64,000 nucleotides of DNA from Candidatus Micrarchaeum acidiphilum ARMAN-2 (GTDB taxonomy: Archaea > Micrarchaeota > Micrarchaeia > Micrarchaeales > Micrarchaeaceae). This document shows positions 15,903 through 16,000 of this stretch, in pieces. The notes beneath the pieces are model-generated. The model saw nothing but the letters and a program-made list of their open reading frames with translations. It did no database searches and was not told where the DNA came from. The stretch spans positions 248,001 to 312,000 of the forward strand of contig GG697241.1 in the NCBI GenBank assembly GCA_009387755.1. Reading direction: 5' to 3'. The position numbers were made by a program, and so were the translations under genes. Position 1 is the stretch's first letter. The number at the start of each line of letters is the position of its first letter.

Positions 15903-16000
15903 GCCGGGATGGCGGAAACTGGTAACGCGCCAGAAAAATTTGGCGAAACTCGAGATCTGGTTTCCTTCGGGAAGTTTGGGTTCAAATCCCAATCCCGGCG
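15903..16000 (+). tRNA. tRNA-Ser(CGA) with a 14-nt insert at a non-canonical position
   Basis: Class II tRNA: acceptor GCCGGGA/TCCCGGC, discriminator G (serine-type in archaea), D-stem GCG/CGC with GG in the loop, variable arm TTCC-TTC-GGGAA and T-stem TTGGG/CCCAA. The anticodon stem CCAGA/TCTGG encloses 21 bases instead of seven. Only the last seven, CTCGAGA, make a proper loop with T33 and anticodon CGA, so AAAATTTGGCGAAA (about 15935-15948) must be an intron between positions 31 and 32. The precursor can also form CGCCA/TGGCG. No CCA is encoded. Confidence 0.82.
15935..15948 (+). other. 14-nt intron of tRNA-Ser at about position 31/32
   Basis: Deduced by subtracting a standard 7-base anticodon loop from the 21-base loop. 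Because an A flanks each junction, the boundaries may shift by one base. Non-canonical tRNA introns are known in several archaeal lineages. Confidence 0.6.

Follow-up and report, generated by a model that had tools for sequence, protein, structure and literature searches.

The gene at positions 15903–16000 of the window (the whole 64,000-nt stretch of DNA analysed, from Candidatus Micrarchaeum acidiphilum ARMAN-2, a very small acidophilic archaeon) is, with high probability, a functional tRNA-Ser(CGA) gene interrupted by a non-canonical, protein-spliced intron at position 30/31. The intron is very probably removed by the broad-range splicing enzyme of the organism, and the precursor would accordingly be expressed, cleaved and ligated. 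The gene is a fine example of a type already described and leaves the current view of archaeal tRNA splicing as it was.

Structure of the tRNA-Ser(CGA) gene

The gene was resolved into the following parts:

15903..16000, + strand: tRNA-Ser(CGA) precursor gene with a single intron and the discriminator G at 16000 (Rfam RF00005, 44.9 bits; parse)
15903..15933, + strand: 5' exon, tRNA positions 1–30, comprising the acceptor strand (15903–15909), the D arm and C27–G30 (parse; base check)
15934..15947, + strand: 14-nt intron AAAAATTTGGCGAA at 30/31 (parse; relatives)
15948..16000, + strand: 3' exon, tRNA positions 31–73, with the CGA anticodon at 15951–15953 and an intact T loop (parse; base check)

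The Rfam tRNA model RF00005 matched the region over its full length, with a score above the gathering score of 29. In a brute-force cloverleaf parse, every single intron of 8–28 nt was tried, and the top score was obtained when 14 nt were removed, either 15934–15947 or 15935–15948, with an identical mature product. The earlier note on this DNA had named a tRNA-Ser(CGA) gene whose 14-nt intron precedes the anticodon, and intron-aware prediction had been proposed as a check; the Rfam match and the parse agree with this identification, and the intron recurs at the same place in relatives. According to the parse, the mature tRNA has the acceptor stem GCCGGGA/TCCCGGC, the discriminator G, a 15-nt variable arm and an anticodon arm with the stem CCAGA/TCTGG and the loop CUCGAGA, which includes U33 and the anticodon CGA. 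The body is a cloverleaf without flaw that carries serine features. Standard tRNA finders can miss genes of this type, and ARAGORN as run here, with the bacterial code, is an example, as the gene at 15903–16000 was absent from its output.

Conservation of the intron and its position in relatives

We read 90 loci from the blastn matches listed, namely the gene itself (L043) and 89 loci from relatives. At 64 of these loci, this one included, the gene is tRNA-Ser(CGA) and its intron sits at an identical point; they represent 64 genomes and 31 genera of one order. The 26 loci left out of this series consist of three intronless genes, nine tRNA-Ser(CGA) genes that have a 37/38 intron instead (three of them read by eye), 11 tRNA-Ser(TGA) genes, two loci read as tRNA-Ser(GGA) and one locus truncated by a contig end (L091). 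The automatic anticodon was ambiguous for L122 and L116, both of which are, by eye, tRNA-Ser(GGA) genes with a 37/38 intron, and the anticodons of L113, L118, L119, L120 and L132 were taken from a separate reading because the parser misread them. At the 64 loci, the exon sequences flanking the intron are GCGCCAG before and ACTCGAG after it. The intron is 11–18 nt long at 60 of the 64 loci and 44–45 nt long at the other four, and its last six bases are GGCGAA at 63 loci and GGCGAG at one. The middle of the intron varies, whereas the gene and the intron ends are kept.

This series bears directly on the exact position of the intron, which the earlier note had placed at 31/32 (15935–15948). In this gene, the intron ends in A, the same base as A31, and the mature tRNA would thus be unchanged by that placement; likewise, the intron begins with A at 43 of the 64 loci, where the placement can slide. 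At the remaining 21 loci, however, the intron has T or C as its first base, and the product is obtained with 30/31 alone. In addition, among near-equal placements 30/31 has the best-scoring geometry when each 3-nt bulge is cut after its second base. Because 21 of the 64 loci fit 30/31 only, the intron of 15903–16000 is assigned on sequence grounds to 30/31 (15934–15947), one base earlier than first placed, and a position at 31/32 is improbable.

Still less probable is the alternative that the gene is a pseudogene or a decayed copy carrying an insertion, with UCG codons read by tRNA-Ser(UGA) alone. A tRNA-Ser(TGA) gene (L029) is present in the genome, and tRNA-Ser(UGA) could in principle read UCG by wobble. 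Against this stand the flawless mature body described above and the conservation of the gene and of the intron ends in 63 other genomes while the intron middle varies. Moreover, the functional copy elsewhere that the earlier note had considered in this connection did not appear: the genome (1.01 Mb in 8 contigs, ~97 percent complete) contains one copy of tRNA-Ser(CGA) by blastn, among the matches listed.

The three intronless genes among the 90 loci are L102, L104 and L106. Over 84 nt, L106 shows no difference from the spliced forms of L062 and L085; all three come from one genus, and the introns of L062 and L085, of 13 and 15 nt, are unlike each other. Compared with their nearest spliced relatives, L104 differs by 2 bases and L102 by 15. 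The spread of the intron was surveyed with the strict pattern CGCCAG-N(4-34)-GGCGAAACTCGAG, which other sequence versions would escape, and the pattern was found in 79 of the 301 genomes of the phylum sample, including that of ARMAN-2; 77 of these belong to the two families of the order. Outside the order, the pattern identified one tRNA-Ser(CGA) gene, in genome G218 from another family of the class, whose 30/31 intron is 25 nt long and has a strong inner helix, ACCCC/GGGGT. A pattern match in G283 was rejected as a tRNA, since it reads like coding sequence.

A composite reading, which we put forward tentatively, is that the 30/31 intron of tRNA-Ser(CGA) is ancestral and fixed in position in Micrarchaeales; that it acts as a folding switch, in which the splicing fold and the cloverleaf share C25, C27 and C28, so that excision would have to precede folding of the tRNA; that at least one precise loss took place (or, with lower probability, a fresh gain in the congeners); and that in some genera a 37/38 intron similar to the one in tRNA-Ser(UGA) took its place.

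The tRNA-Ser(CGA) gene of G218 (L246, G218:C123:5000-5400) contains, by eye, three introns: one at 30/31, another within the 3' strand of the anticodon stem, and a third, long one that interrupts the T loop.

Probable splicing motif

The elements of the motif, in which a slash marks the putative cut, are as follows:

15928..15931, + strand: 5' strand of the central 4-bp helix, C25 G26 C27 C28 (paired in the minimum-energy fold)
15932..15934, + strand: bulge 1, A29 G30/A, with the inferred 5' cut after 15933 (geometry; closed in the predicted minimum-energy fold)
15935..15941, + strand: inner helix and loop (h') of the intron, whose first and last bases can pair (covaries in relatives)
15942..15945, + strand: 3' strand of the central helix, GGCG, internal to the intron (identical at 64 of the 64 loci read)
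15946..15948, + strand: bulge 2, A A/A31, with the inferred 3' cut after 15947 (geometry; open in the predicted fold)

In the central helix CGCC/GGCG, four Watson–Crick pairs link exon and intron. By sequence geometry, cuts after the second base of AG/A and of AA/A would remove exactly the 14 bases 15934–15947. The motif belongs to the relaxed HBh' class rather than to the strict hBHBh' class, because the outer helix (h) consists of one pair, G24-C32. The earlier remark that the usual bulge-helix-bulge is not obvious holds insofar as a proper outer helix is missing and bulge 1 is closed in the predicted fold; by sequence geometry, the two bulges would set the cut sites. The CGCCA/TGGCG helix, which had been described as a competitor, is also predicted here; however, it is most likely the splicing signal itself, namely the central helix of a motif with four pairs and, by sequence, two 3-nt bulges. 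A 5-bp version including A29-U was considered as the conserved signal and rejected: A29 is constant, but T faces it in no more than 25 of the 55 distinct introns, and the conserved core is therefore limited to four pairs.

The inner helix h' is weak in this gene, with two possible A-T pairs, and its conservation was analysed by covariation, in tallies that count sequences and not events. Inner pair 1 (i2:i-7) is present in 42 of the 55 distinct introns versus 24.3 +/- 3.1 in shuffles, and inner pair 2 in 35 of the 55 versus 21.2, values that were reached in 0 of 10,000 shuffles in both cases; inner pair 3 is at the chance level. All four Watson–Crick types occur at pair 1, which is lacking in 13 of the 55 introns. 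For comparison, i2 was paired with the next three upstream bases, which gave 26, 30 and 20 of 53. When one intron was drawn per genus (at most 31 genera), the means were 22.0 versus 14.9 for pair 1 and 17.8 versus 12.3 for pair 2, and the draws were equalled by a shuffle in 1 of 2,000 and 52 of 2,000 cases, respectively.

The relatives thus provide a natural series for one intron, with a fixed place, a length of 11–45 nt, a GGCGAA or GGCGAG end, a covarying inner helix and an intronless congener. Such precursors could serve directly as substrates to define the requirements of the epsilon2 enzyme when there is no outer helix.

Predicted folding of the precursor

Folding was predicted at 37 C with the protein absent. 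When either the splicing helix or the anticodon stem was forced, the splicing-helix form had the lower energy at 60 of the 64 loci, with a mean difference of -4.0 kcal/mol, and the anticodon-stem form was predicted to be better at four. In unconstrained minimum-energy folds, the central helix is present at 55 of the 64 loci, including the ARMAN-2 gene; at only 13 loci are both 3-nt bulges open when the helix is formed. For the ARMAN-2 gene, the minimum-energy fold prolongs the helix through A29, G30 and the first base of the intron. Bulge 1 is thereby closed, bulge 2 remains open, and the arrangement of the D and T arms is altered. The longer helix with A29 is therefore formed in this predicted fold, although the A29 pair is not conserved. 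The closed bulge 1 and the small number of loci with both bulges open count against the proposed splicing fold, in which the first bulge would be open.

The proposed course of splicing is as follows. The transcript would fold such that C25–C28 pair with the GGCG of the intron, leaving the two 3-nt bulges; this pairing would take C25 from the D stem and C27 and C28 from the anticodon stem. The epsilon2 endonuclease would then cut after the second base of each bulge, i.e. after 15933 and after 15947, and a ligase would join G30 to A31. The freed exon bases would close a normal D stem and the anticodon stem CCAGA/TCTGG with its 7-base loop. C27 and C28 take part in both folds, and closure of the anticodon stem is therefore expected only once the intron has been removed. 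Retention of the 14 bases, which would give the mature tRNA an enlarged anticodon loop, is the least probable alternative, since, although CCAGA/TCTGG can indeed close a 21-base loop in the precursor, as the earlier note stated, and the anticodon-stem form is favoured at the four loci mentioned above, the splicing-helix form is favoured at the other 60, and the insert varies between 11 and 45 nt among the 64 loci and is absent from three further loci of the 90 read.

The splicing endonuclease

A splicing endonuclease of broad specificity had been proposed from the gene structure, with identification of the endonuclease type as a check, and the genome indeed encodes an enzyme of the ARMAN epsilon2 type. 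The ORF (400 aa) contains an N-domain and two tRNA_int_endo stretches in a single chain and is identical over 387 aa to PDB 4fz2/9w2k, the ARMAN-2 epsilon2 enzyme according to passages of PMC12397907 and PMC6379350. This identity marks the genome as that of ARMAN-2 or of a very closely related strain. The features that define the epsilon2 type were all found, namely the N-domain, two endonuclease-like units, the ARMAN-specific loop lysine and the catalytic Y/H/K. In the numbering used in a passage of PMC6379350, the loop lysine K161 and the residues Y236, H251 and K282 are kept in 11 of 11 aligned endonucleases. The sample includes a single congener, whose endonuclease shares 98 percent identity with that of ARMAN-2, and the enzyme was found in 116 of 119 genomes, including that of ARMAN-2, in a few of them as fragments. 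Cleavage of relaxed motifs by the epsilon2 enzyme is described in passages of the reviews PMC4033280 and PMC6379350, and broad specificity of the ARMAN epsilon2 endonuclease is reported in parts of these two sources and of PMC12397907. The 37/38 introns of the genome are presumably cut by the same enzyme.

The intronless gene L102 belongs to G025, a relative whose genome is a single contig and in which 9 of the 40 tRNA genes are interrupted by introns; its endonuclease shows 44 percent identity, the lowest among the near-full-length matches listed. The idea that G025 had lost the broad-specificity loop was rejected. Because the loop lysine is kept and other introns remain (one in a D arm and two in T loops), the loss of the intron in G025 does not track a loss of this lysine.

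Comparison with known systems

The tRNAs of ARMAN-2 are reportedly highly disrupted, with introns at various positions, in the ARMAN paper by Fujishima of 2011. Because of that description, the tRNA-Ser(CGA) gene was probably already catalogued there. The Ser(CGA) 30/31 intron was not found by name in the titles and abstract openings obtained from literature searches. Disrupted tRNAs and the epsilon2 endonuclease of ARMAN-1 and ARMAN-2, the reported subjects of Fujishima 2011 and Hirata 2012, are covered in parts of PMC6379350, PMC4033280 and PMC12397907, and the enzyme sequence is the same here.

Position 30/31, lengths from 11 nt and HBh' motifs are known for archaeal tRNA introns, as stated in passages of PMC4090602, which cites Marck and Grosjean 2003. 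The non-canonical introns described there resemble the present one in the 30/31 position, the 4-bp helix, the relaxed HBh' motif and, by sequence geometry, the 3-nt bulges. The rich sources named in those passages are Crenarchaeota and Nanoarchaeota, whereas in the present case 64 genomes from a single order share the intron in one isoacceptor, at one position. Canonical 37/38 bulge-helix-bulge introns have the same kind of geometry; unlike them, the Ser(CGA) intron lies upstream of the anticodon, draws its helix from D-stem and anticodon-stem bases, and has no outer helix beyond the single pair.

Other tRNA genes of the genome

After exclusion of one 3' fragment from 40 Rfam matches, 39 tRNA genes were parsed. 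Introns occur in 20 of them, with 13 at 37/38, five within the T loop, a single D-arm intron and the 30/31 intron of tRNA-Ser(CGA). L014 was counted with the 37/38 group, although the tie-break placed its intron at 38/39; for L035, the plain score gave 27/28 and the motif tie-break gave the D arm, which was used.

The 37/38 intron of tRNA-Ser(UGA), in L029 (G000:C8:214258-214380, outside the window) and in L108–L132, contains GCUGA-N(2-9)-UGAUGCRAA. This sequence resembles a box D'/C' pair and was found in 79 of 119 genomes versus 4 for a reversed control, with some hits lying outside this intron. Upstream of CUGA lie bases that are complementary to positions 31–37 of the same tRNA, perfectly at 11 of 21 loci examined and with one mismatch at the other 10. 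The fifth base upstream of CUGA faces position 34 and is G in four and A in five of the nine Ser(CGA) copies. By analogy, the intron may be a self-targeting 2'-O-methylation guide, a role likened to that of the tRNA-Trp intron described in part of PMC7994747; the pairing could serve splicing instead.

A tRNA with the anticodon UAU (isoleucine, AUA), which is unusual in archaea, is encoded at L015 (G000:C8:143651-143750) and, in G025, at L196. The Pfam family TiaS_FLD gave no match in the ARMAN-2 genome and matched the four archaeal genomes among 14 controls.

L041 (G000:C7:112764-113035) corresponds to the 3' half of a tRNA-Glu-like gene, lies ~700 bases from the intact tRNA-Glu(UUC) gene L012 and looks like a fragment of a duplicate. 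The five T-loop introns (L030, L037, L038, L039 and L040) are located at 58/59 or 59/60. Those of L037 (Arg), L038 (Ala) and L040 (Arg) have the sequence AAAATGC...GCATGAAA in common, which suggests copying between genes.
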